From NCBI GenBank assembly GCA_947034885.2, contig OZ019759.1:1552501-1616500 (forward strand): DNA of 64,000 nucleotides, read 5' to 3'. This DNA comes from Thuidium tamariscinum (taxonomy: Eukaryota; Streptophyta; Bryopsida; Hypnales; Thuidiaceae). Of the stretch, positions 3,959-31,231 are shown in pieces (within the stretch, counting starts at the first letter, position 1; the number at the start of each line of letters is the position of its first letter). A model generated the notes under the pieces. That model was not told where the DNA came from. It searched no databases and worked only from the letters and a program-made list of their open reading frames with translations. The position numbers and the translations under genes were made by a program.

Positions 3959-4096
3959 CACCTTGTGAATTGTAGTACGAATGGGAAAATGTGACACACC
4001 GTTGATTCACCTCAATGGAAATTTGTAGACACACAGCTAGAACCAGAGAGCACGGAGAACAGATTTAGGTCAGACCCTAGACACATTCATTTAGGG

Positions 4097-4801: not shown

Positions 4802-4941
4802 TTTAGTTTTTTTTATTGTTGTATTCTTTTCTCTGAATATTTTAATCAACTATGAATTTTTTAGCAATAATTATAGTTAGGTTGTGTTGAAAAGACTATG
4901 GCTAAGAGTTAAAGATTTTTATATAAGATGTTCCCTTTGTA

Positions 4942-7311: not shown

Positions 7312-7595
7312 GGAGGCATCCTGGATGGAAGATTGTATTTCAGAAGGAACCTCGATCAAGAAGGGTGCTGGATATCGAGGACGAACAAATCCTTGGCATT
7401 TCTGGTACCCATGTAGGATTGAATTTGCCGGAAAACTTGAACAATGCAAAGTTTAGACCAAGAATCAGAATATTCAGCGAGGCTGTCCTAGAAGCTGAGG
7501 TAGCTCGCTTGAATGCACTAGTGAATGGAGAGCAGCCACCACATGTGGAGGGACGTCGCAGACAAAGGCATGGAAGAGTAAACAAACGTCGTTGA
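7312..7595 (+). pseudogene. tail of the CACTA transposase, cut off by a MITE
   Basis: The frame directly after the foldback element encodes GWKIVFQKEPRSRRVLDIED and ends in a very basic tail (RRRQRHGRVNKRR) before a TGA at 7593-7595. Plant CACTA proteins have this kind of segment just after DUF4216, and the basic tail could be a nuclear localisation signal. The foldback element separates it from its upstream half. Confidence 0.55.
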
Positions 7596-8602: not shown

Positions 8603-8912
8603 CCCTAGAAGAAAAGTGTGTTGGAAGCCCCCAAAACGTGTCAAAAACTGCGTTGCAAGCTACACAACACATCATATGGATTTTGTTGAATTCTGCGTTT
8701 TCAACGCAACATTCTATAGACATCTACATTGGATTGCATTTTTGCGTTAGAGTTCTACAGAATTCTAACGTAGAAATGCAATCTAGCATAGATGTCTACA
8801 GAATGTTGTATTAAAAACATGGAATTCAACAAAATCCATATGATGTGTTGTGTAGCTTCCAACGTAGTTTTTGACACGTTTTGGAGGCTTCCAGTACACT
8901 TTTCTTCTAGTG
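8603..8912. mobile_element. CACTA-type foldback MITE, second family (310 bp)
   Basis: This is a palindromic element whose arms pair along most of its length. The right end reads as CACTAGAAGAAAAGTGT on the opposite strand; the left end is CCCTAGAAGAAAAGTGT with one change. The 3-bp duplication TGG is perfect at 8600-8602 and 8913-8915. The arms share ACGTGTCAAAAAC and CACATCATATGGATTTTG motifs. The sequence differs from the 7096 and 9747 family apart from the CACTA start, so it is a separate family. Confidence 0.88.
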
Positions 8913-9746
8913 TGGATAGTGGTTAGAATTGGAAAATTCATAGCACTAACATGTGTTTTATTGTGGGTAGAGGTATGGTGCGTGAGTGAGAAGAGGAAAC
9001 TCTATAGGTATGACTTCACTATCATGGAGTGTGATTACCTTAGTTTGTGAATCTTTGAAATGAATAATGCGAGGGGAAGAGGGAAGAAATGAATGTTTGT
9101 AAGCGCAGTGTACTTAGAATGATGTAAACGGAATTCAAGGTCACTAAGGATGACCATGTTGAAGTGCTTGTTATTATTTTCTGGGTGACAGTGCAATACC
9201 TGAAGCGTGTGGAAGTCAATGTAGTGAAGTAGCGGAAATGCTCCTGAGTTGTGTTGCACAGTACAGTACTTGTTGTACTGTGAAGAGGCAAAAAAGATTC
9301 AGCAAGTAAGAGAATATGCTAGAGTGGACAACTTCGTTAAGTTCTTAGCATATATGTCGTCAGCAAATATCATTCCGGAATTGGATCTTAGAGAAGGGAA
9401 GAATTCTATGGAGTTATTAGCAACGGCACTAAACCCTATTCAGGTTATATTCTAATCATGGAAAGCTTTATGAAATGTAGGGTAGGAAATGATTGATTTG
9501 CTTCTTTAAGTAAAGCCAAATGCCAAATGGCGTTTCTCACAAAGAGCGCAGAAGTGAAGGAAGATGGCAGAGGATGTAGCAATGGATGTCATGATGACCA
9601 ATAAAAGACAGTAAGCCTACAAGCAATGTTCTGAAATTAGTATTATTTTGTTTGTAGTGAATTTTTTATTTGTGAATGATTTCTTTGTGCATGTCAATGA
9701 CTATAGAATTTTGTGAATTGTAATAGCCGTAATTGTTACGATGAAC
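8913..9746. other. spacer with one possible orphan exon
   Basis: Mostly featureless. A stretch at about 9292-9442 is open, encodes a helical segment (VREYARVDNFVKFLAYMSS) and lies between an AG at its left and a CAG/GT at its right, so it could be an orphan exon. I do not recognise the protein and would not call a gene on this. Confidence 0.3.
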
Positions 9747-9962
9747 CACTAATAGAAACCCCCGTTAAATGTGACAAGGCCTAATTTTTCTTGACGGATT
9801 TTGCTAGGCATCAAAAGTAACAACGCGTGTTTTTATGTCAGCATTGATGTTGTATTCAATGTTTTTGTTGACATAAAAACACGAGTTGTTACTTTTGATG
9901 CCTAGCAAAATTTGTCAAGAAAAATTAGGCCTTGTCACATTAAACGGGGGTTTCTAATAGTG
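9747..9962. mobile_element. CACTA-type foldback MITE, copy 2 (216 bp)
   Basis: This has the same length and family as the 7096-7311 copy. It starts CACTAATAGAAACCCCC and ends with the inverse of that motif. The flanking trinucleotides are AAC (9744-9746) and AAT (9963-9965), a target duplication with one change. Differences from copy 1 are scattered substitutions, so the two copies are independent insertions of one family. Confidence 0.88.
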
Positions 9963-11050: not shown

Positions 11051-12879
11051 TGTCACAATCCGAAAATGTCCAAAATATAGTGTTATATTATATCTTGCTA
11101 GAATAATCCGATTCTTTGATTTTTTTTTAAGCTTAAACATAGGAGTAGGACATATTAGAGCATTTCATTGTTTAAGGGGTTCCGAAACTAGAAATTCCGA
11201 AACTATGATCCATATTCCGGAAAATCCGGAAACAATCCGGATTCCGGAAATTTAGGGATTCCGGCTTTGAATGTTCTAGATATGGATTAGCAAACCATAG
11301 GGTCTCTTTATTGAGACAAAATGGTTAAGGAGGAAGATTACATTCTTTGTCCTTACCGGAAACTAGAACCCAGATAGTAGTCCAAAAGTATTTTGGTACT
11401 ATCGGCACTGGACCCGAAAATATTTAGGAACAGAAATGTTCCGTAAATATTGAAGATCCATCCAGGAATGATTGTGATCCGGAATGTTCCGGATAGGTTA
11501 AAGGATCTGGAATCAATCCGGAATGGATACGGATTAAGAGATCCGGAATCCGGAAATTGACCCGGAACGGGAGATTTGGACCCAAGCGGCAATCAAGACT
11601 ACTCTAGTTCACAAAGGCTTTTGCGAAGACACCAGGGAGTCAAAGTGGGAGCAGTTTGAAGATGGCGCATTGGGAGAGGTAGCTTAAAGGCTATCTCCAC
11701 TTAGTTAAATTTTATTTCTAGAATCTGAATCCGATTTTCAGAATGTGGATCCGGATTCTGGATTTTTAGGAGATCCAAATTTTTAGGGACAACTGGTTGT
11801 AACCATTTCGGATATCTTGGGGTGTTCACTGATTGATTGCCCTGATTTCCGTGGTGCCTTTTTGGCTTGTTAAGGCGTTGACTTTTGTTTTGATTTGGGC
11901 TTTTAAGGGGCAGACAAGTTAGTTGGCCTGTCATTCCTTCCTAGTGCATATTCCATTGTATTTCATTCCCTTCTTTAATCTGAGCCGGCGGATGGACATT
12001 CCAACTCTGACTTATGTTTGAGTCTCTCTTGGTGTGTTTGTTGGAGCGTTGAGAGGCAAGAAGGACGGGTGAGGAGGAATCCAGATACTTAGACAACTAA
12101 GGTCTGAATTGAGTGACTAGTTTCTTAGAACTTGGGTTTAGAGTTGTGCGTTTGTGCGTGGAGCCTTTAATTCGCCAGAACGGTGATCCGGTGTGAGCGT
12201 GGAGGAGGTTCCGGAACCACGGGGGTGGATCCGTGCGGAGCTAAGCAACCGCCAAGAGGAAAGTTTCCGTCCACTGGAAGGTCTGCCAACCACTGAGTCG
12301 ATCCGTGGAACTAGGAAAATACATCCTTTTGGGCTTAGATATCTTTGGATCTATTGTTGTGGTAAGGGTGAGTGAAAGTAGTCCTGAGTGACCTACTAAC
12401 CAGATTGGCCAAGATCCATCCGGGAAGTTGTGAGGATCCGGATCCACCCCTAATGCAACATCAGATATATTTGGGTGTCTTTGTGTGTTTTGTTTGAGAG
12501 GAGAGAGCGTGAGGTTTACGAGTGGTAAGTCCCTACACCTCTAAAGATCAAGAGAGGACCCCCTGAGGGTAAAACAAGGGTATCTAAAACCGATTATTGA
12601 GTGACGGAACCGGAATCCGGATTGAGACGGATCTCGGAAAGATATAATCCGGATCCAAAGCGGATCCGAAAAGAGTGGAGAGACGGATCCGGATTGGAAT
12701 CTGGACACAAGGTTGTGTTTCGGAAGAAAGTAATAACTTGGGGGTTTTGGGCTGGGAAACTTAGAAACCGGAAAACGCAACTAATAGTAACGTTTGGAAT
12801 CTCTTGGGACGATATTCCGTGTCATATTATCACGTTTGGGTGTGATAAAGGTTCTTTCTGCTTGACCGCGCGTACGACA
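11051..12879 (+). mobile_element. TGT...ACA element without ORF (LTR-like, 1.8 kb)
   Basis: It starts TGTCACAATCC and ends CGCGTACGACA. The 5-bp flanks are CACTG (11046-11050) and CACTA (12880-12884), a probable duplication with one change. The right half, from about 11880, closely matches 37700-38704, the 3' part of the ORF-bearing element at 31.3-38.7 kb, including the block TTGGGTGTGATAAAGG near the end. The left end shares TGTCACA.TCC with the same element. The left arm is dense in the palindrome TCCGGA. No coding frame is present. TG...CA ends and a 5-bp duplication are hallmarks of integrase-mediated LTR insertion, so this is best read as a solo LTR or an internally deleted copy. Confidence 0.7.
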
Positions 12880-14321: not shown

Positions 14322-14329
14322 TTATTTAC
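14322..14329. repeat. left 8-bp target site duplication (TTATTTAC)
   Basis: TTATTTAC directly precedes CAGGGTTG at 14330 and occurs again at 31224-31231 directly after CAACCCTG. An exact 8-bp match at both edges is the hAT superfamily signature and fixes the element ends to the base. Confidence 0.9.
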
Positions 14330-14344
14330 CAGGGTTGTCTATCC

Positions 14345-14880
14345 TGACGTGACGTGGGCTTTTCCCGTCAGGATGTCATGACGCGTCAGTCGTGACGCGG
14401 CAGGACGCGTCAGAGGCCGTCCCGAATGCTGACGGCGTCGTCGACAGCGCGGATGAAGTCCGTCGACAGCGCGCAGACGGCCTGTCGGCCGCCTCGACGA
14501 CTAGCCGTCGCGTGGACGGACAGAGCGTCCGCGGCTTTAGGGTTTAGGCGCGACGGCCAGGCCGTCGCCTTGACAGTTTTCTGTTCAGCGGACGGTCACG
14601 GCGTCCAGAGTCCGTCCACGCAGCGGGGACGGCCAGAGCGTCCGCGGCTTGTGCACTTTGACGGGACGGCCAGGCCGTCGCCTCGACAGTTTTCCGTTCA
14701 GCGGACGGTCACGGCATCCAGAGTCCGTCCACGCTGCGGAGACGGCCAGGCCGTCGTCTAGACAGCGGGACGTCCGCTGGACGGCCAGAGCGTCTGCGGG
14801 GACGGCCACGACGTCCCGTCCGCGGCTGTCCACAGTGCGCCAACGGACAGGCCGTCGACTGGACGACTGCTGCCAGGCCT
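14345..14880. repeat. GGCCGTC/GACGGCC array, left end and transposase promoter
   Basis: This GC-rich block holds many copies of GACGGCC and GGCCGTC in both orientations. The composite GACGGCCAGGCCGTCG occurs at about 14537, 14667 and 14740. The array stops just before a TATA box at 14887-14892. The subterminal position fits transposase-binding sites, as known for other hAT elements, and the position beside a TATA box fits a promoter element. Both roles are inferred. Confidence 0.75.
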
Positions 14881-14886
14881 TCACAG

Positions 14887-14892
14887 TATATA
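14887..14892 (+). promoter_or_regulatory. TATA box of the hAT transposase gene
   Basis: TATATA follows the motif array by a few bases and lies 220 bp before the likely ATG at 15107. A 58-bp intron (GTAAGT at 15023, acceptor CAG ending 15080) may sit in the leader. Two other genes of the element have a TATA box at nearly the same distance from ATG. Confidence 0.6.
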
Positions 14893-15163
14893 GCACAAGC
14901 CGTGTATTTGAAGGTCACTTTTCCTTGTTGATCTCTGCTCTTATGACCTGGTTGGCACATAGCCATTGCACTAGAGTGAAGTCCAAGATGAGTGTGTGGG
15001 AGGAACACTTGCTGTGAAAGCAGTAAGTGTTATTTCCACATCACATCCAAACAGAATACTAACCTGTTTTGTTTGTGCAGTTTCAAGTGAAGAACCAGTG
15101 GGAGTAATGGGAGGGGGGAGGACACAATGGGAACCCTAGTACAGGCTACAAGAGGATGGGAAA

Positions 15164-18100
15164 GTGGAATGCAAGTTCTGCAAAACGAAGAGTAGTTACC
15201 GCAAGGATCGCTTGCTTTTCCACTTGGGTTATACACGAAATGACACCCTCCCCGGAGTGAGAATGTGCAACAAGGCTAGTGCAGCAGTGAAGGCTATGTT
15301 TTTCAATTGTGGGGGGAATGTTCCTACGGTCTCCGAAGACGAAGAGGAACATGATGTGGAAGTGACATCACCGTCATCGAATCCAACGAGGGTGGTACGT
15401 GATCAAGAACTACCCAATGCTTCAATCTCAATTAGTGGAGGGGGAGGAAATACTTTGGGCCAAAATTCTCAAGTTCGATCATCAAAGGCGCCTGTCCCTT
15501 CTTCGACCCATAGTCGACCGCTGAGGCAATTATCCGTACAAGAAGGGATGGACACATCCAAAAAGCAAGTACTAGACAAGAAGTGGGCAAAGTTTTTCTA
15601 CGAAGCAAATATCCCATTCAATGTGGTGAGACACCCCGCTTTTGTGGATGCCGTGAAATCAACCTCCGAGTCCAGAGTTCTTTACAAACCTCCACCTTAC
15701 AATGCCATACGTACGAAGCTCATGACATCAACAAAGGAGGAAGTGGCTGCACTGGTAGCGGAGAATACAAGGGGGCCTATCCACAAGTACGGTGTCACTA
15801 TATGTTCTGACGGATGGGACAATGTCAGCCATCGGCCATTGATCAATGTAATGTTGTCGTGCACGAGTGGAGAAGTATTTTTGGGATCGGTGGACACTAC
15901 AGGCGAAAGCAAAGACGCTGTTTATGTGGCTAATCGCATGATCGATTACATTGACGCGGTGGGGGGACAGAATGTGGTGCAAGTTTGTACGGACAATGCG
16001 CCAAACATGCGTTTGGCTGGTACTCAAATTACTCGCGAATTCCCTCACCTATATTTCCAAGGTTGTTCCGCGCATGCACTTGACCTTCTACTTGAAGATT
16101 GGGGCAAGCAACTTTGGGTGGTCAAAATGGTGAAGAAAGCAAAATCAATCGTGAAATTCATTCGCACGCATCACATGCCACTCGCCATTTTCCGACGACA
16201 TTCTCCTAACCTCATGTTGAAGAATCCCATTGAGACACGTTTTGCGACCATATTCCTCATGATCAAGCGTTTGGCCGAGGTCAAGGAAGCCGTGGAATCT
16301 ACAGTCCATGATCCGCAGTGGAACGAATATGTGAGGTCCTCGAACGCTGCAATACACAATAAGGCAGAAAAGGTTCGACGTAGGGTTCGAAAGGACGAGT
16401 TCTGGAGGAGGTGTCTCAACTTTGTGCATATGGTAGAGCCTGTGTTGGTGGCTCTTCGAGAGTTTGATGGAAAACATCCGGTCATGGGCAAAGCATGGAT
16501 CGTGATGAAGAAGCTAGAAAAGCATGTTTTGGCTTTGAGGAATCGACCATTTTCATTGGAGGCAAATTATGCGGATCGTGCTGAATACGCGTTTTATGAA
16601 CGATGGGATTTGATGAAGACCGATTTGCACTACGCAGCTGCCCTGCTCAATCCATTCCTCCTTGATGAAATTGTACTAATAGACGATAACGAGGCAAAGG
16701 AGGCCATTCTTAGAGTACTACGCAAATTGGCAGTTGGAGGGTTGGGATATGCAGCCGCTTTGTTTGAGTACCAATCCTTTCGAGACCGTCGAGGCATGTT
16801 CGCTGGACTTCCCGATGTGAATACTTTGAATTTGGAGCCGCATGAATGGTGGGATCTTCTCGGAGCCGGTGCTCATACGCTTGCACCTATTGCAAGAAGG
16901 ATCCTCGCACAAGTATGTTCCGCATCATCATGCGAACGCAATTGGAGCATGTATTCATTTGTCCACAGCAAGTCTCGCAACAGATTGACATCTGAGCGCG
17001 CGGAGGAATTGGTTTACATTTATACCAATTCGAGGACTCTCAGGGAAAGGGGTGCGGCGGATGCAGCACGATGGTACACTGAGAACATGTTGTCCGAAGA
17101 TTCCATGACAACCGAATCAGATGGCTTGGATCGTGGTTCGGTTATGTCAGACGCTAACAACGATGACTCAGACGACAGTTCCAGTGGCGATGATGATCCA
17201 CCATTTCGGCCTTTGGGTGAAAGGCAAGAAAGGGGTCCCCTAATTGACGAGTCCGTATTTGACTTTGATGGCGCGGATAATGATGGAAATGACCACGGGG
17301 GAGATGAGGATGGAAATGACAACGGGGGAAATGATGGCAGTCCGTCATGGATGCCACGTACATCGATTGCGGGGTCAAGTGGTGGAAATCAAAACGAAGG
17401 GGTTGAAGCCCCACCTTCGCCGGTTATAGGGCCGATTGAAGAAGAAATGCGTACCCGGAGACATGAACATGTCGTTGTGGTAGAAAGACAAGGCGAAGAT
17501 GAGGTCGTTGCCACAGATCCCCCAGTGGCGCGGAACACTCGTAGCCACAGATCCCCCATTGGTGTCAAGATAGACTTTCGCACATTGCGTCGAGACACGA
17601 TCGGCGTGCGACCACAAGCGCCTAGCTTGGATGATCCACCCGTCCAAATTTCAGCACGGCCTTCATCTTCTAGAGTCCGCCCCAACCAAGAAACTCCATC
17701 AGTCGGTACACGATTGGCTGGTCTCTTCCCAACTCTAAATATGACCGAGCGAAGGAATGCACCTCCATCCTCAGAACAACCCGTTGCACTGCCTACACGC
17801 ACTACTAATCGACGCCCGCGGCCACGTGAAGAAGGCCCTACCAATGAACGAGTGAGTAGAAGAACACGTAGAAGGCTAAGAAGGGAAGAAGTGGCGAGTA
17901 TACCATTTCTCCGCGAAGGTCTTCACCCTGGACCGACGGGGCCTAGTGTGGATACCGCTGGAGATGGAGTAGGAGGGCGAACAATCCGCAGATTGGCTTC
18001 TATAGTAGGTGAAGGCTCAGACAGCCCTGACAACTCACCAAGCGAAGTCGGTAGGGCAACGTCCAATCATGATGATGAATCCATGGGTCCTAGTATAGGT

Positions 18101-18241
18101 GAAGATGGTGAAGTTCCGGGAGATAGTGATTATAGAGGGACTCGTAGAGGTCCTCCACCTGCACCTCAAGACAATCAAGCAACCACGCGAGAGGCTGCTG
18201 CAAGGAGCATGGCTCTTAATCGTACACGTGCAAGACGTTGA
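15164..18241 (+). CDS. hAT transposase (BED-like finger, DUF659, hAT dimerisation domain)
   Basis: This is the transposase that should mobilise the surrounding element by cut-and-paste in the nucleus. Residue numbers count from 15164. An N-terminal VECKFCK zinc-finger segment is followed by a DUF659 domain (about 150-320) with SDGWDN (Asp about 216) and VCTDNAPN (Asp about 277), and CSAHALDLLLEDWGK. The C-terminal hAT dimerisation domain holds SSCERNWS (Glu about 591). These fit the D-D-E triad. About 400 residues of acidic, Asn/Asp/Gly-rich, low-complexity tail follow. The frame is open upstream to 15140. An in-frame ATG at 15107 is cut off by TAG at 15137-15139, in a place where Gln (CAG) would fit. 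So 15164, a GTG, is not a real start: the gene either has one nonsense mutation at codon 11 or an upstream exon. Everything after that is intact. Confidence 0.9.
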   Translation: MECKFCKTKSSYRKDRLLFHLGYTRNDTLPGVRMCNKASAAVKAMFFNCGGNVPTVSEDEEEHDVEVTSPSSNPTRVVRDQELPNASISISGGGGNTLGQNSQVRSSKAPVPSSTHSRPLRQLSVQEGMDTSKKQVLDKKWAKFFYEANIPFNVVRHPAFVDAVKSTSESRVLYKPPPYNAIRTKLMTSTKEEVAALVAENTRGPIHKYGVTICSDGWDNVSHRPLINVMLSCTSGEVFLGSVDTTGESKDAVYVANRMIDYIDAVGGQNVVQVCTDNAPNMRLAGTQITREFPHLYFQGCSAHALDLLLEDWGKQLWVVKMVKKAKSIVKFIRTHHMPLAIFRRHSPNLMLKNPIETRFATIFLMIKRLAEVKEAVESTVHDPQWNEYVRSSNAAIHNKAEKVRRRVRKDEFWRRCLNFVHMVEPVLVALREFDGKHPVMGKAWIVMKKLEKHVLALRNRPFSLEANYADRAEYAFYERWDLMKTDLHYAAALLNPFLLDEIVLIDDNEAKEAILRVLRKLAVGGLGYAAALFEYQSFRDRRGMFAGLPDVNTLNLEPHEWWDLLGAGAHTLAPIARRILAQVCSASSCERNWSMYSFVHSKSRNRLTSERAEELVYIYTNSRTLRERGAADAARWYTENMLSEDSMTTESDGLDRGSVMSDANNDDSDDSSSGDDDPPFRPLGERQERGPLIDESVFDFDGADNDGNDHGGDEDGNDNGGNDGSPSWMPRTSIAGSSGGNQNEGVEAPPSPVIGPIEEEMRTRRHEHVVVVERQGEDEVVATDPPVARNTRSHRSPIGVKIDFRTLRRDTIGVRPQAPSLDDPPVQISARPSSSRVRPNQETPSVGTRLAGLFPTLNMTERRNAPPSSEQPVALPTRTTNRRPRPREEGPTNERVSRRTRRRLRREEVASIPFLREGLHPGPTGPSVDTAGDGVGGRTIRRLASIVGEGSDSPDNSPSEVGRATSNHDDESMGPSIGEDGEVPGDSDYRGTRRGPPPAPQDNQATTREAAARSMALNRTRARR

Positions 18242-18626
18242 GAGCATCTAGGGAAAAAAATGTCTCCATGTCATCTTATGTAATATTGTGTAAGGCTGAA
18301 TACCTTGCATGTGAAATTCGGCATAAATTATAAATACTACACATGCTTCCTGTGCTCATGTAGGGCGCATGGGTAGAAATTTTTTATCTTTACATGTCAC
18401 AAATTCTACAACGCAACAACGGATCCATTTATGCATATTTGTCCCAAGAAATGGAAATATTTGCTTTGTCGTTTGCCATGTGTTCTATACTCTTAAATTT
18501 GGATTCATTCTTCGAAGCTGGTTACCTACATGCTTGGATATTTTGAGATCATTATGGATTTTGCCATGTACAAGAAAACAAATGTAATCTGGAATATGGA
18601 GAAAATGATTGAAAGTACTGAATTAA

Positions 18627-19545
18627 CCCCTAAAGGACCAAGAGTCCCCTCGGGGAACTTTAAGAATTAGGGCAAGTACTTGTGACTTCAATTTTTAATG
18701 AATTTTATTGAAATTTTCACATAAGATAAAAAAACTGATTAGCTCCGTGGAAATATTCATTTTTTTTCAATTGGTGACTGGGAGCAAAAGTTATGCCATC
18801 ATAAACATTATTTTTATGTTGCCGGGCAGAAAAAAAATCTACAGAAACTTCAAAATTAAAAAAATAATTTTTTTTTCTTATAGATTATATTTTTGTCTAC
18901 AAGTAAAGCTTTGATTCATTCCATTTGGATTAGTAATGTGAAAGTTATGAACAATCTTGTTTTTCAGGCAATCTAAGCATCTTCTTGAAAAAATAACTTC
19001 TAGGATTCATTTGTGAATGCAATTTCCACAATTTTAAAAAAAAAATTGTTGGACAAGGTTGATTTTGTTTTCTAGAACAATCTCACCATTGGGATTATTG
19101 TGTTTCAATTCCATCTATGAGATATTTGCAATTTAGTTTTTCTTTCAATCTTGGACCTACATCTACTTGACAATTTTTTAAAGAATGACAAAAAGTCTTT
19201 ATTTTGTGAATTTTTTTTCCTAAGCTCTTAGCTCAATTTCTCAATAAAAAAATTTTAATTCAAGGTCTGTAGTGCAAAAAGATTACATAAATGGAGGACA
19301 AAGTCATTTGAAGTTGCAAACTAGTGTTTAAGAAAACTTTGTTTTCCAACTTTGAATGCTCATATCTTCCTATCTATACGGTCAAACTTCATGAAATTTT
19401 CACCACATCATCTTAGTTAAGTAAAGTTCAAGATCCTATGGTTAGATTCTAAAAATTTAGTTCAAATGTTTTTCATGGATGAATGGAACAAAAATGGCAA
19501 TTTTGAGTGGTTTTGGGTTGAAAAACGACCGTCGTCCTTTAGGGG
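18627..19545. mobile_element. TTAA-flanked MITE, piggyBac-like (919 bp)
   Basis: The ends are CCCCTAAAGGAC (18627) and its inverse GTCCTTTAGGGG (to 19545), each bordered by TTAA (18623-18626, 19546-19549). TTAA duplication and termini starting CCC are typical of piggyBac elements. The interior is AT-rich with no coding frame, so it is non-autonomous. It lies between the transposase and kinase genes and must have entered the giant element later, or travelled with it. Confidence 0.8.
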
Positions 19546-19890
19546 TTAACATGGCATTCAGTCCAAAATTTACGAAGGGACAGAACTACTCACAAATCCA
19601 CTCACCGGAATCATACTCGAATGGAACAAAAAGATTTACATATATTTATTTCAAAAAGGAGTTAGTACAAAATTCAGTGACGCAAAGTTCGTGGACTATA
19701 CTGTGGTAAAAGCAAGTACTAAGGTACGTCTACGATTACATTGCCACTAAAATACTATTCTCTAATCTTCATTCCTTGCTTGTTCTTGTAGAAGTGCTTG
19801 CTCCTTGCGGGCCTCGCGGTAGCAATCCACGGGTGGAGTCCAAAATAAGGGGGCGCCACTAATTCGTCCCACGGCGTATGTTACCGTGCG

Positions 19891-21423
19891 TCATTGTAGT
19901 GGGTCCTCTTTGCACAATTCGCCCAATGTGGCTTGAAATGTACCAAACGCTGTATGGTCGGGAAGCATTTGCGTATTTTCGCGGTCTTTCTTCCATATCT
20001 TCTCCGCAAGCTTCCCAACAGCATATCCGTCTGTATGTATACTAACACACGGTGCCCCATCTGCACGAGTGGGGGATACCGAAGTGCCCGCCTCTCCAGG
20101 AACATACATCAATTCAGGGGCCACCCACCAACGTTTCTGACGTGTAGCCCGCATTTGGCTTGCACATTGAAACTGGTACAAAGAATGGGTTTCTTCATTG
20201 ATACGACTAGCCATTCCCCAATCACATAGCCCAATCCACACTGTTCGCCCATCATCATTCGGAAAATGCAACATGATGTTTTCTGGCGTGATGTCGTTGT
20301 GGAGCACCGAAGATTGTTGCACCGCATCCACTATGCAAATTAACGCCCATGCAAGCTCGGTGCGGTTTCTACGATAAGCCAAGAGTCTTTTGGCTTCTTG
20401 CATCGTCTATGGAGTTGCATGGTAGGCAAGCTCCCCGATCTCAGCATAATCTCGGTTTTTCTGGTCCAATGCGAACATGGCTCCCAATGTTCCTCCATTC
20501 CACCATTGAGAATAACACTCCATGGTTATGTCATTTATAGCAAAAAATTTTATGACCCCTGGATGATTACATGGACAAACCAAAGCCTCGATGGACAACT
20601 TCTCCCGCGACTTCTTCAATTGATCCACATATAGGGCTGTCTTGCCCGCCAATTCCATCATGGGGGGAATGTGCCTTGAATTTTGGAGGCTCACTTTACG
20701 CACCCTCTCGTGCCCCCCTTGTTTGTTGTGGCTTGACAATGGAACCACCACCACTCCTCGTTCAAGAAATACCACTCCTCCCGCACCCGCTTGGCCTAGG
20801 GACAAGCTTTGGCTCTGCTGAAACCATGGGGCAGAGCGGATATTGCTGGAAGACAGCGCTCGCATTGCGTCATGCCACCAATACACCTTTTTGTGCAACA
20901 AATGCAATGCTTGTTGCTTCGGCGCTACATCTCGTTTGAAGCCCTTTACCGATGCGGCGACTTGGGCGATGTTGAAAACACAAGTTTGCACTTGTTCGTC
21001 AAGCCAACGACGGAAGTGTTCCTTTGTGCGATCTTCAAGCCACTCATCCTCGCCCATTGTTGTCCAAAACATGTGGGTGAATTTTTTTTTAATTGTCTCC
21101 ACCCCTTGCAATCCACGCGAGACGTAGGTCGTATTCAATTGAGCAATCGTATATTGCTCCAAAAAATCCAATGCCACTTCCTGCACTTTCCTGGTAGCAG
21201 CCTTCCTTCGCCAGTCGTCTGTATTCGTAACCTTGTGCCTCCGCCTGCTCTTTTTTTTCTTGGCCCCCGAAGATTCTCCTCCAACCGCACCACTGACCCC
21301 TTCTCCGGCCAATACTGCCTCTAATACGCAGTCAATGGATTCTGGAGACTGCTCACCAATAGGATCTCCGATGCCTGAAAACCACTCATCAACCTTGCGC
21401 TTCGACGCACCTCGCCCGTCCAT
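19891..21423 (-). pseudogene. Ser/Thr-type protein kinase gene with one in-frame TAG
   Basis: One frame runs from ATG 21421-21423 to TGA 19891-19893, about 510 codons, broken once by TAG at 20407-20409 (ATP-stop-TMQ; CAG would restore Gln). The first half has a basic N-terminal region (KKKKSRRRHK near residue 55, a possible nuclear signal). Then come a glycine-rich loop (LGQAGAGGVVFL) and an N-lobe ending near HPGVIKFF. The second half has the catalytic loop LHNDITPEN (HND for HRD, Asp about 377), CDWGMA for DFG (Asp about 401) and VAPELM for APE. The catalytic Asp and metal-binding Asp are kept, so an unbroken version could be active. A 52-bp intron with GT-AG ends (21425-21476) lies one base before ATG. 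It is cargo of the giant hAT element; substrate unknown. Readthrough of the TAG is possible but unproven. Confidence 0.8.
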
Positions 21424-21617
21424 TCTGAAAAAAAATATGCGATGGTAAAACCAAGGAATTAGGGTTCAGTACTCACAAATGTGAAAACTATCCCCCCTTC
21501 CTCAGCCGAGCCTCCTCGCAAGCACCCGCGCTCCCAAGCAAGGACTGCAACCAATCCAGGGCAAGAGAGCACCGTCAGAGCAGGAGAGACTCGTACAGAG
21601 TGGGGGACCTGGCCCAC

Positions 21618-21625
21618 CTTATATA
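21618..21625 (-). promoter_or_regulatory. TATA box of the kinase gene
   Basis: On the minus strand the sequence reads TATATAAG. It lies about 195 bp upstream of the kinase ATG and borders the GGCCGTC array that begins near 21640. The layout matches those of the transposase and RING genes. Confidence 0.65.
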
Positions 21626-21639
21626 GTCATTGGCGAGCC

Positions 21640-22075
21640 GTCGCATGGACGGCCGATCCGTCCAAGGAACTCGAAAGCTGTCGAGGGGTGTCGGGAACTC
21701 CGAGACCGTCGAGGGGACGCCCTGAAGCCGTCGAGGGGAATGTCGAGGACGATGAGGCCGTCGACGGGACGCACCCATCCGTCCCGGGAATTTCGAAGCC
21801 GTTGTGGGGACCGTCGAGGAACTGCGAGACCGTCGAGGGGACGCGCTTGCCGTCCTCAGAATTCGGAAGCCGTCGAGGGGAATGTCGAGGACGATGAGGC
21901 CGTCGACGGGACGCACCCATCCGTCCCGGGAATTTCGAAGCCGTCCAGGAAACCGTCGAGGAACTGCAAGACCGTCGACAGGACGCACAAGTTGTCCTGG
22001 GAATTCGGGGGTCCGTCGTGGAACGAGGCCGTCCACGCGACCCCACAGGGCGTCCCGGGAATTCTGAACCATTAA
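21640..22075. repeat. GGCCGTC/CCGTCGAGG array at the kinase promoter
   Basis: CCGTCGAGG and GGCCGTCGACGGGACG units recur in a dense block. A segment of about 75 bp around CCGTCGACGGGACGCACC occurs twice (about 21755 and 21900). It lies directly upstream of the minus-strand TATA box. Several long frames across it are by-products of its composition, not genes. Confidence 0.7.
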
Positions 22076-22258
22076 GGGGATCGTCGAGGAAGCACAGGGC
22101 GGTGAAGATGCCAGCGAAGACTTAATGGCAAGCCTCGTGCAACTGAAATTCCTCTACAAGGTAATAAGGTAACAGGCCAGAAACCGCCCATCTAAGGGCT
22201 GACACTGAATTTTGAGAAGGTCAAAAACCCAGCCTAAAGCCCTTGCCCAACCGAAGGT

Positions 22259-22300
22259 TTTAGGATTTAGGGTTTAGGGTTTAGGGTTTAGGGTTTAAGT
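22259..22300. repeat. telomere-like TTTAGGG tract (about 5 units)
   Basis: Consecutive TTTAGGG units, the Arabidopsis-type telomere repeat, with one variant unit (GATTTAGGG) at the left end. It lies inside the giant hAT element beside the kinase promoter array. Short interstitial tracts of this kind are common in plant promoters and also arise at repaired breaks. Confidence 0.8.
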
Positions 22301-23519
22301 TCCTTTTTACTTTTGCGTAAATGAGGGTAAAATGTCTAGTTTAGTAATTTAATAACTTAAGAAGTGCATTATAATTTGTATTCGGTAATTGATCTTTATT
22401 TTCCTAGCGTCAATCTAATTTTGCAAATTTTGAAGTAAATAAAAGAAATAACATGAAATGATTAAACTTATTGGTTCTAGTCTAAACACATACCTCTTCA
22501 GTTGATGCGTATCCGTTCTCAGTTGTGTCGTCAAAAAGCTCTACTTCCTCCCTTTCCATCTAATTTCATTCTCCCCCGTAAATTTAGGAAATAGGAGCTA
22601 ATTTTAATAATTTAATCCGGCTTAATTAGCATTTGCTATTTGATGGTCACACTATAACTCCTTGAGGAACTTAAATCATTTCCGTACAATGACTTTGCCT
22701 AAATCTAATTCAAGCGTACATACATCTATTTTACAAAATGGGGTCATATAAAATGCCTAATTGAATTCTTCAACCCAATTATATTGTTGTAACTTACTAG
22801 GAATCTAGGATGTTTTTTGGTATGAAAGATGTGCATATGGATGTTTCCTACATATCTCCTCTTTGCAAATTAATGCTAATTCATCACCAATGTTTTATAA
22901 TCAATTATCATGCTAAACCATGAGTTTTGAATGAAACAATTCACCAGATACTGAATTTGACTTATGTGAAATCCACATTTGGTATGCTTGATTATATTAT
23001 GCAAAATTCGTTTCAATGGCAGAATTGGATGATCCTAAACTTGTTGGTGGGTAGTGTATAATGTACACGGCTAAAATTTTACATTGCCTTCCAGTGCTTC
23101 ATCTCATATCGAGAATGGCTGAAGTGATGGACCCTAAATTTTAGAAGTTGCCCTACGGATATGTAGGGATTTAAACTTCTCAATTTTAAATTCGGGAGCC
23201 ATCCGACTAGGCATGTATTTTTTAGGAAATTAGATTAGTACTACATGTACATATTAGTATATTACTATATTGCATAATATTCTGGTCATGTAGTCATGTA
23301 CTCTACTTATGAGTTATGAAACTATGAGTTATGAAAGTATAAGTGAATGGCGAGCACTAATTAGGAGTTTAGGACGGGGGCACTAGCAAGCAAGACTCCG
23401 TTAGTGGGCACCAACCAATTTTCAGAATTCAGACTCTTCTGCGGAACCCTAAACCGCTCTAATCCTCTCTTTGCCGAAGTGTATGATAAACCCTAGAAGA
23501 AAGAGTTAGAATTCCGCAA
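22301..23519. other. AT-rich interior of the giant element, nothing recognised
   Basis: No coding frame, inverted repeat or tandem repeat of note. It separates the kinase promoter from the first minisatellite. Confidence 0.4.
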
Positions 23520-23985
23520 GTGTGTTAATGGTTTGAACCAAAAAAACACGTCAAAGGGTTAAAAAAGTTACCCCAAAAAAATATAGAAAGGGTTTGGAAA
23601 GAAATTGTCGAGCCCTGTTCGAATAAAAAAAATGTGGAAATGGGTTGGAAAAAAATGTGTTAATGGTTCAATTAAAAAAAATAGGGAAAAGGTTTGAATC
23701 CCCAAAATGGAAGTGGTGTGAATAAAGCAAAACGTTAATGGTTTCGGGTGTTGGGCAAAAATATATAGAAGGGATTTGGACCAAAAAGTGGGTTAATGGA
23801 TCGACTAAAAAAATATGGAAATGATTCGGTTTGGAAAAAAATGTGGAAATGGTTTGAATTAAAAAAATGGGAATGGTTTGAATAAAAAAAATGGGAAAGG
23901 TTTGAATTAAAAAAATGGGAATGGTTTGAATAAAAAAAATGGAAAAGGTTTGAATTAAAAAAATGGGAATGGTTTGAATAACAGA
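23520..23985. repeat. degenerate minisatellite, GGTTTGAATAAAAAAATGG type
   Basis: Units of about 20-45 bp built on GGTTTGAATAAAAAAATGGGAA repeat with variation; the last third is nearly regular. The same unit appears in the opposite orientation at 29.3-30.57 kb, on the other side of the RING gene. Confidence 0.8.
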
Positions 23986-25610
23986 CTCGGGGGTTCACCC
24001 CCTTTATCTTTTGGTAACCACGTGCGATAATGGGGTATTTAATGGGGGGGTATTTATGTCCTTCTCATGTTTTTTTCCCTCCCTATTAGTAGAAATAAAG
24101 CTACCGGAGTGTATTTTAGAGTACCCTATTTTCTTTTGTAAATTCTTTGAAGGACTATTTTTGAACACCCTATTTTTTTTCTACATTTCATAATTACAAA
24201 ATATTGAGAAGATCAAAAACATTGTATACAAGGAAACATGTGAGCTTCAAGGATTTTGATGAACTAAGAACATGGTGAAACGCACAGCATATGCTATCTA
24301 TATGCCACTAAAGAGTTTGAAAATCAAAAATCAAAGCTACAACTATTTATATTTCACCATTTATAAGAAAACAAAGCACACAATAGAGAAATTAAACTAT
24401 AGTATACAATCTTAATTAATGCAATATTTAAAACCAATTTAAAGGCACAAGAGCATATTCACATTCATTTATATAATAAGGAAAACTTAGGGAATTTAAT
24501 AAGCCGATTGTGTTTAAAAACACAAGTATCAGTAAGTCTGCAAATCCATTCTAACATCTAAAATGAAGAAGTTCAAGGACCTCTTGCTCTCAAATCAACT
24601 ATTATGGTAGGAAGCTCACACGGAGGTTAATAAACTATGCAGGCTTTTTTATCTGCTTAATAGGACTATAGGAGGGTCTGAAATCTGAATTGGAAAGCTC
24701 ATTGTGAGGAAACTAATTGTGGATTATATTGAAGCATGCTAAGATTTGATTTTTACTATATGAATGGATGGTTTTAGAGTTACAATGGATTCAATCGTAA
24801 CTAAGTGTACTTATAGGTGTCTACTAATTTTATTCAAAATAAAAAATGGTTGTTAAACTACCTTCTTTCAAATGTGAAATTGTTTTGAAATAATGATTAA
24901 TTGAAGAATTCATTTCAGTTTTTGAAAGGGACACATTTAGAAACCATTTCAAACCATTTTTTACATGTTGCATTACTAGTTTATTCACCAAACCAGATTC
25001 TTTTAGAAACTGTGCATGTATAGATTTTCAAGGCTTACTGATCACAAATAGGGTCCTATGACAAATTGTGTTTGAAAATTAATAATTAATTCAATTTTTC
25101 TTCCAAAAAATATGAAACAACTTGTATTAGATTCCTCATCTATTTCTCCTTGACTGAAAAATAAACTAAAAATATTTTCATCTAAAGACATACACGAAAA
25201 AGGCAAATCAACTCTTAATTTAAATAAGTGCAATCTTTGCCTCCTACCATGCATACATGGCTAACACACTTGTCACAATCATGAATCCCAAAAAAATTTA
25301 AAAAGAAATACAAGATCTGAATGAGTCACACACTTGTCACAACCATGAATGAATCCCAAATTTTTTTTAAAAGAAATGCAAGTTGTGAATGTTAACTCAC
25401 TGAGCTCCAATAAAAATTACAGTATACAGGTACTGCATTGGCAATCTTCACCAGTTCACCCACATTAAAATTCTGCTGTCTTACAGCTTATTGCATCTCA
25501 ACTGCCTAAATGAATACCAATTGCGTAATTGGATCCTGGCTGTCTAATTGGATTCCACCTGCCTAATTGAAATTCAGTATATATTGGGCCCACCTATTGG
25601 GCCCACCTAT
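23986..25610. other. AT-rich interior of the giant element, nothing recognised
   Basis: No domain-bearing frame on either strand. A short direct repeat around 25270-25360 (ACACTTGTCACAA.CATGAATCCCAAA) is the only structure seen. Confidence 0.4.
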
Positions 25611-25614
25611 TGGG

Positions 25615-26310
25615 CCCATCCAGGACCTGGGCAGGCCGTCACGGGGACGGAGGGCGTCCCTAAAACCGTCCAGGAAGACGAGCCTGTCGAGGACGGCCAG
25701 GGAGGACTGACCCCTCTATTGCCCCTTTTTTACCCTTGCAGAAAACTCTGGAATTTATTTTATTTTTCACACAAATTCTTTTTTGCAAATTCTGAATTCT
25801 TATTTGGAATCAGAGACCTCGATTTAGCTAGGGGACGTGTTGAAATCTAAAATTTAATCGGCACAAATTAGGGGGGAATTTTTTACATTTACCCTCCGGA
25901 GGGGCAATAGAGGGGTCAGTCCTCCCTGGCCGTCGAGGCCCTGGGCAGGCCGTCACGGGGACGGAGGGCGTCCAGAAAACCGTCCAGCAACACGGGCCCG
26001 TCCAGGACCTGGGCAGGCCGTCCGCAACGAATTTGGTTGCGGGCCGGAGCGTCGACCTGTCCGGGCAGGCTGTCCACAGCGGAACAGTGGCCGTCCAAGA
26101 CCACGGGCATGCCGTCACGAAGAGCCATTTTTGGCCATCGAATTTGCAATTCGGCGGAGTAATTATGGATTTTCGAACTCATGAGTGTTTTCGAACTCGT
26201 TGACGGCGCCGGACCTGTGGACGGCCTTTGTAACGTCATCCCGAAGCTGTCGACGGCCTCCCGAACCTCCGTCGACGCTCCTTGGACGCCCCAGCCGTCG
26301 ATGGCCGTCC
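25615..26310. repeat. GGCCGTC array at the RING gene promoter, split by an AT-rich insert
   Basis: Units such as CTGGGCAGGCCGTCACGGGG occur at both sides (25628 and 25940), with CCGTCCAGGA and GGACGGCC variants up to 26310. In the middle, arms of about 35 bp (25690-25725 and 25901-25935) are inverted copies around an AT-rich spacer of about 175 bp, as if a small fold-back had split the array. The array ends about 80 bp before the TATA box. Confidence 0.7.
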
Positions 26311-26389
26311 GCATCAACGGCTCCAGGTGGTGCATGGCGATGTGATTAGACACAAATTAACACTCCTAACGAGGCTTGGTAATGGGGAG

Positions 26390-26396
26390 TATAAAT
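26390..26396 (+). promoter_or_regulatory. TATA box of the RING gene
   Basis: TATAAAT lies 207 bp before the chosen ATG at 26597, after the GGCCGTC array. The distance is close to that of the other two cargo genes. Confidence 0.55.
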
Positions 26397-26596
26397 CCCA
26401 AATTCAGCCACAATTAACCTTGCTTTCTCTCTTGAGTTGCTCTGTCCTAGCTTGAAAAAAGCTTTGCATTGCAATTCGGGAGGAAGTCAAGCATTTGGCT
26501 ATTGCTTTGCCACATTCCAGTTGCCCTCACGCAACAGGAGGCAGAGCATAGTCATCTGTACATACATACCGTGTTGTGGCATTGTGTGCAGGTACT

Positions 26597-28960
26597 ATGG
26601 CCTTAAACCCTGGAGAGATGGTACTACATGTAGAGAACCCCCCCATGGCAGAGAACCAGGGGGTGGTAATTGCTGGAAATCACCCCCCAGTGGTAGAAAA
26701 CCAGGAGATGGTAACCCATGAAGGTGAACCCCCACACAGGAGGCGTCGTGGGAACAGGAGCACTGTAGACTGGGCGACTTTCAACACTGGAGAAGTTTTG
26801 GCCGGGCACGGGTGGGAACAGGCGCTTGAGCCATGGACCCGCACCACATGTCAGAGATACGTGGACTGGGCCCACATCAACCGCCATTTTCCACGGGAGA
26901 GAAATGAGACGCAAGTGCGATCTGGCGTTGCATTGATCAAGTATTGCGTACACCCAACGTTCAAGAAGCGGTTGACCGAGGTGGCATTGGCACTTTGGGG
27001 GACCCTCTCGAAGAAGGATGGGACCCTCGCATTGTGTCAAATGGCGTATGCGGAGGTTTTTTTGGGCAAGGACATGGATTGGAACACGTATCCGGCAAAA
27101 CAACGGGGCGGCCGTTTCCCTGCTAAAAGCCGTAGAATTCCATCAAATCCTGAAGTGCAATTGGAGGGCGAAGGAGTGGCTGGGGCACAAGGGGACGAAG
27201 CGGCGGCCGCGGACCCCATGGAGGTCGACAATGCACCTCAAGGCGCCAACGAACAAAATCCGGTGGCTCCCGAATTGGAGGCGCCCATTGCCGGTCCAAG
27301 CGAGCCCATGCCACTGGCCATTCACCCAATTCCCCCGTCCATGACAATTAATGAAGTATTTGGAGCAAATGGGGAATTAGAGGCATTACGTGCATTGGTG
27401 ATTAAGCTGCGTGAGGATGGTGCAGAAGCTGAGCGAAGGCACGAGATGGAGGTACAAGCCCACAACGCACGAGTGAAGGCTTTGGAGGAAACGAATGCTA
27501 AGTTACTAGCAAGTAACATTGACTTGCTTGAACGTGAACGTCGCCAAAGCACGGATGGCACTCCACCATTGGATGAGGTCGTGGAGCGGGCCACATATGG
27601 TCTAATTGAGCCAGCTGACCCATTGACGGTGCGCCGGGTGCGGCCTCATGGTATATTCCCAACACCACATTTTCGTGGTGAGAGTTCAAATGCGGCAACC
27701 CAATCAACAGATGCATTGGGCCAAGAGTTCATAAGCGTTGAGCGCGTGGCATACGATGCCCTTGTGGCACGAGCGGAGCGTGCAGAGGGCGAGTGCAATG
27801 AGGCCAAGGCCAACATGGAGACTGTATCAACGGCTTTGGAGGGACTACAGGACGAGTTGGCATTTGTAAATGCCATGAAGGATAGATTGTTGCAACAAAC
27901 GTCAACTACGAGGGAGCAAAAGTTGCTTGCCATGAGCAACATGAGATTGGCATGCACTTTGGCTATGAACGAGGTCGCACAACTGCAGCGTGAAGTCAGG
28001 AGAATAGCTGCACAATTTAGAGATGGTAGCCAACGTTATTTTGGCTTGACATCATGGGCCCGACTGGAGGATATGTTTCCAGTTACATTGCCCCAAAATC
28101 GCGATAATGCAAGCATTGATTGGGACGAGCATCCGCATCTAGACTTCCAATTCAACACCGCGAGATATCGATACGGGCCCGTGGATAGAGAAGGCAATGC
28201 CCCCTTACTGTGGCCCATAGTTCCCGAGTTTGTGAAGGATGGAACGACGTGCACGATTTGCATGGAACCATTTGGACCCGAGGGTGGATTTTGCCTTGGA
28301 CCGTGTGGACATATATACCACCCCGGATGTCTCATTCCGCACATGGTCACAAGAAAGCGGTGCGCACAATGCAAGGCTCCTTTGCACCGGTGGTTGTACG
28401 TCCAATTTGGGTTGGAGGATTACATGCCCCCACACTTCGAGTTGAACGAAGAAAACTTGCCTGGCGATGAGAATAGAGGGAGTTGGGGTAATGACATGAT
28501 ATGGATGTGGAAGTGGGGCCATGACAGTAGACACCTCGCCGTGCGCAGCGTGCAAGACATTCTGTGGAACGATGATGCGGAGATTACGGAGGTGTGCAAG
28601 AAGCTGATTAGTGCGGGCGATCCAGGGCGGCGAGTATTTTTTGGCCAACTTGCTGGTGGCCATTGGGACTTGGACCGACAGGAGTTCGTGCGCCGACCAC
28701 ATCCAGAGAATGTGGTTTTTGACTCCAGTGGAAATCCTATCGGAATACTCCAAGACATGGATCATGAGGCACAAATGAGGTTCATTGAAGACACTACGTT
28801 CAATGAGGTGCAAATGTTGTCAACCATTTCTTCCTACTTGCACGATCGATATGATCGGACCGTAGTGGCTACGTTGAATAGTTTGCAATCTAGAGAAGGA
28901 TTGCAAGATTTTTTGAGAAATAGTATAGGCAGAGGCATTGTAGAACCAGAACAAGGTTGA
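26597..28960 (+). CDS. coiled-coil RING-H2 protein, putative E3 ubiquitin ligase
   Basis: An intact frame of 787 codons from ATG 26597. An ATG 21 bp upstream in the same frame is less likely, because a good acceptor (TGTGTGCAG) lies between the two. The protein has an N-terminal region rich in Pro/Glu with a short basic RRRRGNR patch. A Trp-rich segment of unknown kind follows (about 60-170), then an acidic linker and two long heptad-rich regions (about 255-330 and 385-480) likely to form coiled coils. The RING (about 552-592) reads CTICMEPF, then CGHIYHPGC and CAQCKAP, that is Cys-Cys-Cys-His-His-Cys-Cys-Cys. About 195 residues follow without a known domain. RING-H2 domains usually recruit E2 enzymes for ubiquitin transfer; the target here is unknown. 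GC content is well above that of the flanks. It is cargo of the giant hAT element. Confidence 0.88.
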   Translation: MALNPGEMVLHVENPPMAENQGVVIAGNHPPVVENQEMVTHEGEPPHRRRRGNRSTVDWATFNTGEVLAGHGWEQALEPWTRTTCQRYVDWAHINRHFPRERNETQVRSGVALIKYCVHPTFKKRLTEVALALWGTLSKKDGTLALCQMAYAEVFLGKDMDWNTYPAKQRGGRFPAKSRRIPSNPEVQLEGEGVAGAQGDEAAAADPMEVDNAPQGANEQNPVAPELEAPIAGPSEPMPLAIHPIPPSMTINEVFGANGELEALRALVIKLREDGAEAERRHEMEVQAHNARVKALEETNAKLLASNIDLLERERRQSTDGTPPLDEVVERATYGLIEPADPLTVRRVRPHGIFPTPHFRGESSNAATQSTDALGQEFISVERVAYDALVARAERAEGECNEAKANMETVSTALEGLQDELAFVNAMKDRLLQQTSTTREQKLLAMSNMRLACTLAMNEVAQLQREVRRIAAQFRDGSQRYFGLTSWARLEDMFPVTLPQNRDNASIDWDEHPHLDFQFNTARYRYGPVDREGNAPLLWPIVPEFVKDGTTCTICMEPFGPEGGFCLGPCGHIYHPGCLIPHMVTRKRCAQCKAPLHRWLYVQFGLEDYMPPHFELNEENLPGDENRGSWGNDMIWMWKWGHDSRHLAVRSVQDILWNDDAEITEVCKKLISAGDPGRRVFFGQLAGGHWDLDRQEFVRRPHPENVVFDSSGNPIGILQDMDHEAQMRFIEDTTFNEVQMLSTISSYLHDRYDRTVVATLNSLQSREGLQDFLRNSIGRGIVEPEQG

Positions 28961-29325
28961 ATACCTTCTAGTGATGAGTTAGGCCATTAGACGGATGTAT
29001 AGTATATTAGTATTGTAAATAGTATTTGGCTATGATGACCATTTACGAGCGTTTGTTGCTCATGTTGCAAAAGTACATTTTTTGGTCAATGAAGCATTTT
29101 CATTTTTCTCGTACAACTGTATTGTCTGTTAAACACTTAAACTGAAAACTTAACCATGAACAAATGAAAAGAATACTCAATACGTTTGCTTGAAATGTAT
29201 GTGCAACAAGTTCATTTAAATCCAATGCCATACTTTCACTTAAAGTAGATTTTGTAAGTTCACTTTTAAAAATTGCCAAAATTCTATTTTTTACATATGC
29301 CACAAGTATATATGCTTTTGTTTTT
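28961..29325. other. 3' flank of the RING gene
   Basis: AT-rich sequence between the RING stop and the second minisatellite. No further feature seen. Confidence 0.4.
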
Positions 29326-30570
29326 GATTCCCACCATTTCGAATTTTTTTAATCAAACCATTAACCCAAGTTTTTCCCACCGCATTTTTCCACATTTTTT
29401 TTTCCACATGTCAAACCATAACCATTTTTTTACCCTAACCCATTTCCATTTGTTAGATTCAAACCCTTTCCATATTTTAGATTGAACCCATTTCCATATT
29501 TTTATTAGTCGAACCATGAACACATTTTTTTAAACCATTTCTATATTTTTTTGTCGCCCACATTTCAAACCATCAACGTTCTTTTTTATTCAAAGCATTC
29601 CCATTTTATTGATTCAAACTATTTCCAATTTGAGCCTTAACCATTAAGGCATTAACATTTTTTTTCCAAACCATTTCTAAATGTTTTTTATTCAACATTT
29701 CAAACCATGAAAGTTTTTTTTTTCAAACCATTTCCATATTATTTTTAATCAAACCCTGAACACATTTTCTTTCCAACTTATTTCCATATTGTTTTTAGTC
29801 AAACCATTAACACATTTTTTTTCACGACCCTTTCTATAAGTTTTTTTCCAACCTTTCAAACCATTGCCTTTTTTTTTATTCAACCCATTTCCATTTTTTT
29901 TTTTATTCGAAGCATTTTCATATATTTTTTAGTCGAAACATGAACACATTTTTTTTCCAAGCCATTTCTATATTTTTTTGTATTCAACATTTCAAATTAT
30001 TAACTTTTTTTTAATTCAAAGCATTTCCTTTTTCTTTTTCTTTGATTCAAACCATTTCCATATTTTTTTTAGTCGAACCATTAATCCATCTTTTTTCCAA
30101 ACCATTTCTATATTTTTCTTTCTAACACCCTATACCATTACCGTTTTTCTTTACTCAAAACTTAGCCATTTTTTTACCCTAAACCATTTCCATATTTATT
30201 CTAGTCAAACAATTAACACATTTTTTCTCCAAACCATTTCTAAATTTGTTTTTCCAACATTTCAACCCATTTCCATATTTCTTTTAGTCAAACCCTAATC
30301 ACATTTTTTTCCCAACCCATTTCCAAATTTTTTTGGTCGAGCCATTAACACATTTTTTTCCAAACCCTTTCTATATTTTTTTTTCATTCAACATTTCAAA
30401 CCATTAACGTTTTTTTTATTCAAACCATTTCCATAATTTTTTTATTCGAACAATTAACACATTTTTTTTCAAAACCAGTTTTACATTTTTTTTTATTCAC
30501 AATTCCAAACCATTAACGTTATTTTCATTCAAACCATTTCCTTTTTTTTGATTCAAACCACCAAAACCTT
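29326..30570. repeat. degenerate minisatellite, inverse of the 23.5-kb block
   Basis: Units based on TTCAAACCATTTCCATATTTT and AGTCGAACCATTAACACA repeat with much variation for 1.2 kb. Read on the other strand this is the unit of the 23.52-23.99 kb block. The two blocks face each other across the RING gene. Open frames here are low-complexity by-products. Confidence 0.8.
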
Positions 30571-30729
30571 TTTTTTAAATACAGAATATATATTATATTT
30601 AGACTATGGAAGGCCTAAAATACAAAACCATGGGAAATTATTTTTTGAGAGATGGTTAAACCTCATAGACTAATGAGAAAATTTTGATTGCGAATATGAA
30701 CTCAGACTTTTAAGTCTTACAAATAAAGA

Positions 30730-31200
30730 GTTCCAGTCCACGGAGCCCAGGCCGTCCATCCTGACCGTCGACGGCACGGCCAGGCCGTCCATCGAACCTA
30801 GGCCGTCCAACCTTCCTCTCAATCCAAGCCGTCCTTCCCAAGCGTAGACCGTACCCAGACCGTCGATCTGGAGGCGTCCGTCCAGGCCGTCCACTGGACG
30901 TCCTGTCCATTGGGGCCGTCCATACCCCGCGAGCGGGGCCATCCCCTAAAACCGTCCACCGGATCCAGACCGTCCGCAGAACCCAGAGTGTCCATCCAAG
31001 CCGTCCAGTCAGCCAGGACCGTCCATCGGAACTGTCCACTGAGCACGTCCTTCCAGGCCGTCCACGGAGGTCGTCCGTGAGGGCGTCCACGACCGCTGTC
31101 ACGATTTTTCATCCTCTGTCGCGGATTATGTCGTGAATTTCATCCTGACAAACGCTCGGCTCCCCGTCACGTCAGCGGACGGACATCCTGACGGACGGAC
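30730..31200. repeat. GGCCGTCC array, right end of the giant element
   Basis: Dense GGCCGTCC, ACCGTCC and AGGCCGTCCA units run up to the right terminus. This mirrors the left subterminal array. No gene starts beside it on either strand, so here the array looks like a terminal recognition region rather than a promoter. Confidence 0.75.
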
Positions 31201-31223
31201 GTGACGCGACGGAAGCAACCCTG

Positions 31224-31231
31224 TTATTTAC
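31224..31231. repeat. right 8-bp target site duplication (TTATTTAC)
   Basis: Exact copy of 14322-14329, directly after the CAACCCTG end of the giant hAT element. Confidence 0.9.

Follow-up and report, generated by a model that had tools for sequence, protein, structure and literature searches.

The window, the whole 64,000-nucleotide stretch of Thuidium tamariscinum DNA analysed here, contains what we regard, with moderate confidence, as a degraded copy of a large hAT element with several genes. Its own gene set would comprise a transposase, a RING-H2 protein and, less firmly, a divergent protein kinase. The element is 16,894 bp long (window 14330-31223) and is bounded on both sides by an exact 8-bp duplication. 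This duplication, the inverted termini and a common inverted word 30 to 36 bp inside the ends had all been proposed in an earlier sequence-only reading, and each was recovered.

14322-14329, no strand: target-site duplication, left, TTATTTAC, 8 bp
14330-14337, plus strand: left terminal inverted repeat, CAGGGTTG, 8 bp
14366-14377, plus strand: CGTCAGGATGTC, 36 bp inward of the left end
31182-31193, minus strand: inverted CGTCAGGATGTC, 30 bp inward of the right end
31216-31223, minus strand: right terminal inverted repeat, CAGGGTTG, reading CAACCCTG on the plus strand, 8 bp
31224-31231, no strand: target-site duplication, right, TTATTTAC, 8 bp

Taken alone, the CAGGGTTG 8-mer means little, since it occurs five times in the window (two of them the element ends) with 2.19 expected. 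CGTCAGGATGTC has only its two inverted copies in the window, with 0.02 expected. Three pairs of sites in the window combine an exact 8-bp duplication with 8-bp inverted ends 200 to 25,000 bp apart, and one of the three, the element's own, is of the CAGGG/TAGGG type. Across 100 dinucleotide shuffles such pairs averaged 0.59 per shuffle, and none was of this type. TTATTTAC has T as its second base and A as its seventh, a pattern frequent among hAT targets. The marks of the hAT superfamily, an 8-bp duplication, short 8-bp terminal inverted repeats and a transposase with a dimerisation domain, are all present, and we consider it almost certain that this is a true hAT element with these ends. The genes were also said to be GC-rich against an AT-rich background, which matches the 1-kb bins inside the element (47-56% GC where they bear genes, 28-41% GC in spacers).

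On either side of the element, and not mentioned in the sequence-only reading, is one of a pair of 1.1-kb direct repeats with 84% identity (window 11782-12879 and 37594-38704). These may be the LTRs of an older insertion, and if so the hAT element inserted after them. The ranges scanned contained no TG...CA ends accompanied by matching duplications of 4-6 bp, and seven interior frames scanned gave no Pfam match above cut-off. Near-palindromic stretches of 214-374 bp, 87-93% self-complementary, lie at window 7097-7312, 9746-9962, 8605-8910 and 40373-40741 and look like foldback or MITE-type elements; those at 7097-7312 and 9746-9962 are 93% alike. An open frame at window 4942-5850 matches DUF4218 (E 4.2e-30), a domain usual in plant CACTA-type transposons. 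AT-rich tandem arrays of 24-26-bp units stand on either side of the RING gene (window 23527-23981 and 29313-30560), in opposite orientation and 66-74% alike over the longer matches. The plant telomere-type repeat AGGGTTT/CCCTAAA forms short arrays inside the element, at window 22255-22297, and at 57178-57247.

Three genes lie between the ends.

15107-18241, plus strand: hAT transposase gene, with likely ATG at 15107, in-frame TAG at 15137-15139, then an open frame 15164-18241
19762-21423, minus strand: divergent protein-kinase gene, a single frame with internal TAG (20409-20407) and TGA (19893-19891)
26597-28960, plus strand: RING-H2 gene, with likely ATG at 26597, a frame open to 28960 and long predicted helices

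The transposase matches DUF659 (E 6.5e-36, 123.7 bits) and Dimer_Tnp_hAT (E 1.8e-9, 37.7 bits) in Pfam, both above cut-off. It had been described as a full DUF659/hAT transposase. The family assignment stands but the word full does not, as an in-frame TAG follows the likely start by ten codons. That start is the one matching the transposase relatives P0018, P0020 and P0022, which begin upstream of the window's open frame. A start downstream of the TAG, inside 15164-18241, is the alternative. Given the TAG after the likely start, the gene lacks the unbroken frame of an autonomous hAT element. Protein searches were made with the RING, kinase and transposase sequences, each scoring about 8,000 candidates that shared most words. 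For the transposase 66 relatives were found, and those with organism names include the moss Ceratodon purpureus (P0081) and Chara braunii (P0083), matched over 9% and 18% of the query. Together with the AAACCCT-type repeats in the window, these names suggest a green plant.

A protein kinase in the element had likewise been claimed. The domain is there (Pkinase, E 6e-9, Pfam), but the frame that holds it, 554 codons from 21423 to 19762 including the final stop, is interrupted by the two internal stops. All 12 kinase relatives found align over most of their length. Six of them cover 99-100% of the query at 56-75% identity without a stop, which is no measure of selection, protein databases being biased towards frames without stops. 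When seven relatives were combined into a profile, it had no match at E 1e-3 among solved structures. The Pkinase model matched 12 of 13 aligned family members; its scores are only 35-36 bits. These kinases form a family of their own, far from known kinases. The residues expected of a eukaryotic-type protein kinase are present in the alignment, in which the window row is a read-through across two stops: Lys and Glu in 13 of 13, the catalytic Asp in 11 of 13, and the DxG Asp and APE in 12 of the 12 rows with letters. HRD reads HND and DFG is mostly DWG. The predicted structure has a mean pLDDT of 55 and a best Foldseek E of 8.6e-4 with low TM-scores; all 50 matches listed are protein kinases, kinase-like proteins or complexes, which agrees with the fold class only. 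We think it likely that the kinase is native to the element lineage.

The third protein was correctly read as a coiled-coil RING-H2 protein. Its RING domain spans residues 558-600 of the frame counted from 26576 (RING, E 5e-7; zf-RING_2 above the Pfam cut-off), the frame is open in the window copy and long helices are predicted. The protein search found three relatives at 47-51% identity, aligned over most of their length. All eight zinc ligands (C3H2C3) are present in five of five RING proteins. A structural model of the protein was too poor for use (mean pLDDT 42). Because the zinc ligands are kept throughout, as are most of the kinase catalytic residues, ubiquitin-ligase and kinase activities are plausible from sequence. 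That the RING gene is native to the element lineage is very likely.

Stops in two of the three genes, the transposase and the kinase, make it probable that the window copy is dead or non-autonomous. It speaks for the existence of a family of elements rather than for a working member, and any function may exist at the level of the family.

A short word, whose arrays the sequence-only reading did not report, links the ends of the element to its genes. The word, CCGTC/GACGG, has 96 copies inside the element, against 48 in the 47,090 bases that make up the rest of the window. Four arrays, together 2,174 of the 16,894 bp, hold 81 of the 96.

14330-14870, no strand: left-end CCGTC/GACGG array (541 bp, 23 words), which also precedes the transposase gene
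21631-22050, no strand: CCGTC/GACGG array preceding the kinase gene (420 bp, 20 words)
25601-26330, no strand: CCGTC/GACGG array preceding the RING gene (730 bp, 18 words)
30741-31223, no strand: right CCGTC/GACGG array, 20 words in 483 bp, with the inverted CGTCAGGATGTC at 31182-31193

The word is the commonest 5-mer in three of the four arrays; in the right array CGTCC is ahead, 21 to 20. The two internal arrays are modestly unusual, with a fraction of 0.011 (kinase) or 0.040 (RING) of random interior positions scoring as high. Each gene has one TATA-like box, at 14887 for the transposase, 21625 for the kinase and 26390 for the RING gene, and these lie 220, 202 and 207 bp before the respective ATG. 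We do not favour the internal arrays being leftovers of separate two-ended elements; the cargo genes have an array on their upstream side only.

The gene set was then sought beyond the window. When the transposase alignment was run against genome contigs of bacteria and archaea, one of 37 candidates was confirmed, the 6,291-bp contig CADCWO010000266.1 (L001), filed under an uncultured cyanobacterium and taken here for a eukaryotic contaminant. The transposase relative P0075 is named as from a Bacilli MAG, and both placements are likely to reflect contamination of public MAGs. On L001 a transposase piece (41-2083) is followed after 744 bp, in the same orientation, by a gene for an 855-aa RING protein (2828-5395) in which Pfam finds the RING domain. 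The alignment of this protein with the window's RING protein spans 360 columns at 30% identity (E 1.3e-35), and an N-terminal stretch matches as well (E 1.9e-9). A transposase tree was built by a quick method from 58 rows (P0001, 56 of the 66 relatives and L001; P0074-P0083 were left out). The window's transposase falls in a 6-row clade and that of L001, whose letter make-up was flagged as unusual, in a 12-row clade, each fully supported. Transposase-RING pairs in two clades would be better explained by a common ancestral gene set than by two independent captures of homologous RING genes.

A kinase was not found on this 6.3-kb contig. No CCGTC array lies upstream of its RING gene, and its tail is a different GC-rich tandem repeat. 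On whether other copies enclose the cargo, a question raised by the sequence-only reading, L001 shows a distant transposase paired with a RING homologue, but the kinase was not found beside them. Elsewhere, two close relatives, kinase P0009 and transposase P0021, both list a longest contig of 6,480 bp. The expected number of such coincidences is 0.0015 over 28 close pairs and 0.04 over all 792 transposase-kinase pairs, and the two genes are perhaps on one contig. P0021 begins at residue 187 of the window transposase. In the window that residue and the kinase start are 5.7 kb apart, so one contig of 6,480 bp with both genes would fit. The central proposal of that reading, a hAT element with kinase and RING cargo, is upheld by the boundaries, the domains and the transposase-RING pair on L001, but the link of the kinase to the element outside the window is indirect.

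How these parts might work together can be sketched. An element protein, most simply the BED-type transposase, would bind the CCGTC arrays, by analogy with the AAACGG hexamers bound by the Ac transposase; we give such binding an even chance. The same protein would bring the ends together and work at each of the three promoters. Ubiquitin ligation by the RING protein and modification by the kinase would be aimed at the transposase or at host silencing proteins on the arrays, so that the element stays expressed while its movement is checked. These two targets are leading guesses, which the evidence does not tell apart. Taken as a whole, the picture is of a lineage of large plant hAT elements that has long kept a transposase, a RING-H2 protein and a kinase. 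Its promoter array would double as its end-recognition sequence, with one DNA-binding protein controlling both movement and expression while the ligase and kinase shield or restrain. We hold this tentatively, at a little short of an even chance. Anti-silencing, rather than self-restraint, may be the main role of the pair, with the balance tilted against it.

Self-restraint, for its part, is possible but again on the doubtful side. The kinase and RING protein would mark the element's own transposase for turnover, making movement rare, and host silencing would not be a target. A kinase plus a ubiquitin ligase is a common turnover logic, and the transposase family carries a long acidic tail whose conserved C-terminal motif would be a possible recognition site. 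Among the 50 family sequences over 900 aa, 21 match this acidic motif strictly, as against 1 of 10,000 shuffled tails, but the remaining 29 do not match it strictly, which speaks against the idea. Self-restraint and anti-silencing are compatible and neither excludes the other.

The kinase and RING genes could instead be passengers, either unrelated genes enclosed by hAT ends through chance or parts of elements that inserted later into a small hAT element. At 16.9 kb the element is long for a hAT element, much of its interior is occupied by AT-rich tandem arrays and spacers, and the set of transposase, kinase and RING gene has been seen in one copy, the window's. The arrays at the kinase and RING genes are nevertheless of the same kind as those at the ends. 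No exact pair of 8-bp duplications and 8-bp inverted ends lies inside besides the element's own, although diverged ends would escape this count. The transposase-RING pair on L001, in another clade, also counts against passengers, and we judge this explanation improbable. A distant relative pairs its own transposase with the same RING gene, so the kinase and RING genes look like built-in helpers, not accidental passengers.

Capture of host genes without a role for the element is very improbable. DNA transposons in plants are well known to capture pieces of host genes, as Pack-type elements do. Against such an origin, the kinase is far from known kinases by its profile and Pkinase scores, the 12 kinase and three RING relatives align along most of their length (among the best-word candidates scored), and the RING gene again adjoins a distant transposase on L001. 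A viral origin was rejected, as six scans of viral contigs with the RING, kinase and transposase alignments confirmed no relatives. PHROGs gave one generic kinase match, to a 170-aa kinase piece. A plasmid search with the RING protein found no relatives, and the kinase alignment confirmed none of 14 candidates in bacterial and archaeal genome contigs.

The usual view of hAT elements is of transposons with a single gene. If the helper reading is true, a hAT lineage has retained a gene of the ubiquitin-ligase type, and probably one for a kinase as well, on both sides of a deep split. Among the literature matches listed (titles and abstract starts, few subscription journals), there was no description of a hAT element with a RING-H2 and a Pkinase-type gene.

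The window element resembles Ac/Ds and other plant hAT elements in its 8-bp duplication, short CAGGG-type ends, hAT transposase and repeated short word inside the ends. Ac is 4.6 kb long with one transcript, and AAACGG copies inside both of its ends bind the transposase (PMC3260210). The window element, unlike Ac as described there, is 16.9 kb long, has two more genes and carries its end word before those genes as well. A fungal element, ToxhAT, is also large (about 14 kb) and carries cargo; it was once filed as hAT and now stands with Tc1/Mariner, with TA duplications and 74-bp ends (PMC12506042), in contrast to the 8-bp duplication and 8-bp ends found here.

VANDAL elements of Arabidopsis, which are MuDR-type, resemble the window element in having accessory genes and, in their non-coding parts, arrays of a short motif; in VANDAL21 the motif has 9 bases and VANC binds its arrays (PMC5735166). 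The superfamily differs, as Pfam finds only DUF659/hAT here and no MuDR-type transposase. The accessory proteins are here a RING protein and a kinase, and binding, established for VANC at VANDAL arrays, is putative here.

Fungal TET/JBP transposons are DNA transposons, hAT among them (hAT7), with an added enzyme gene, and IS3EU carries an alpha-kinase gene opposite in direction to its transposase (PMC12730594). The window kinase likewise runs opposite to the transposase. It matches Pkinase, however, with no alpha-kinase model listed by Pfam, and TET/JBP gave no match in the four element frames scanned. The duplication of 8 bp also differs from the 7 bp of hAT7 and the 6 bp of IS3EU (PMC12730594). 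Accessory genes on DNA transposons are thus already known, from VANDAL/VANC, fungal TET+ transposons and IS3EU (PMC5735166, PMC12730594). If our reading is true, hAT elements too would evolve protein-level tools against the host or balanced with it, in parallel with VANC in Arabidopsis and TET/JBP in fungi.
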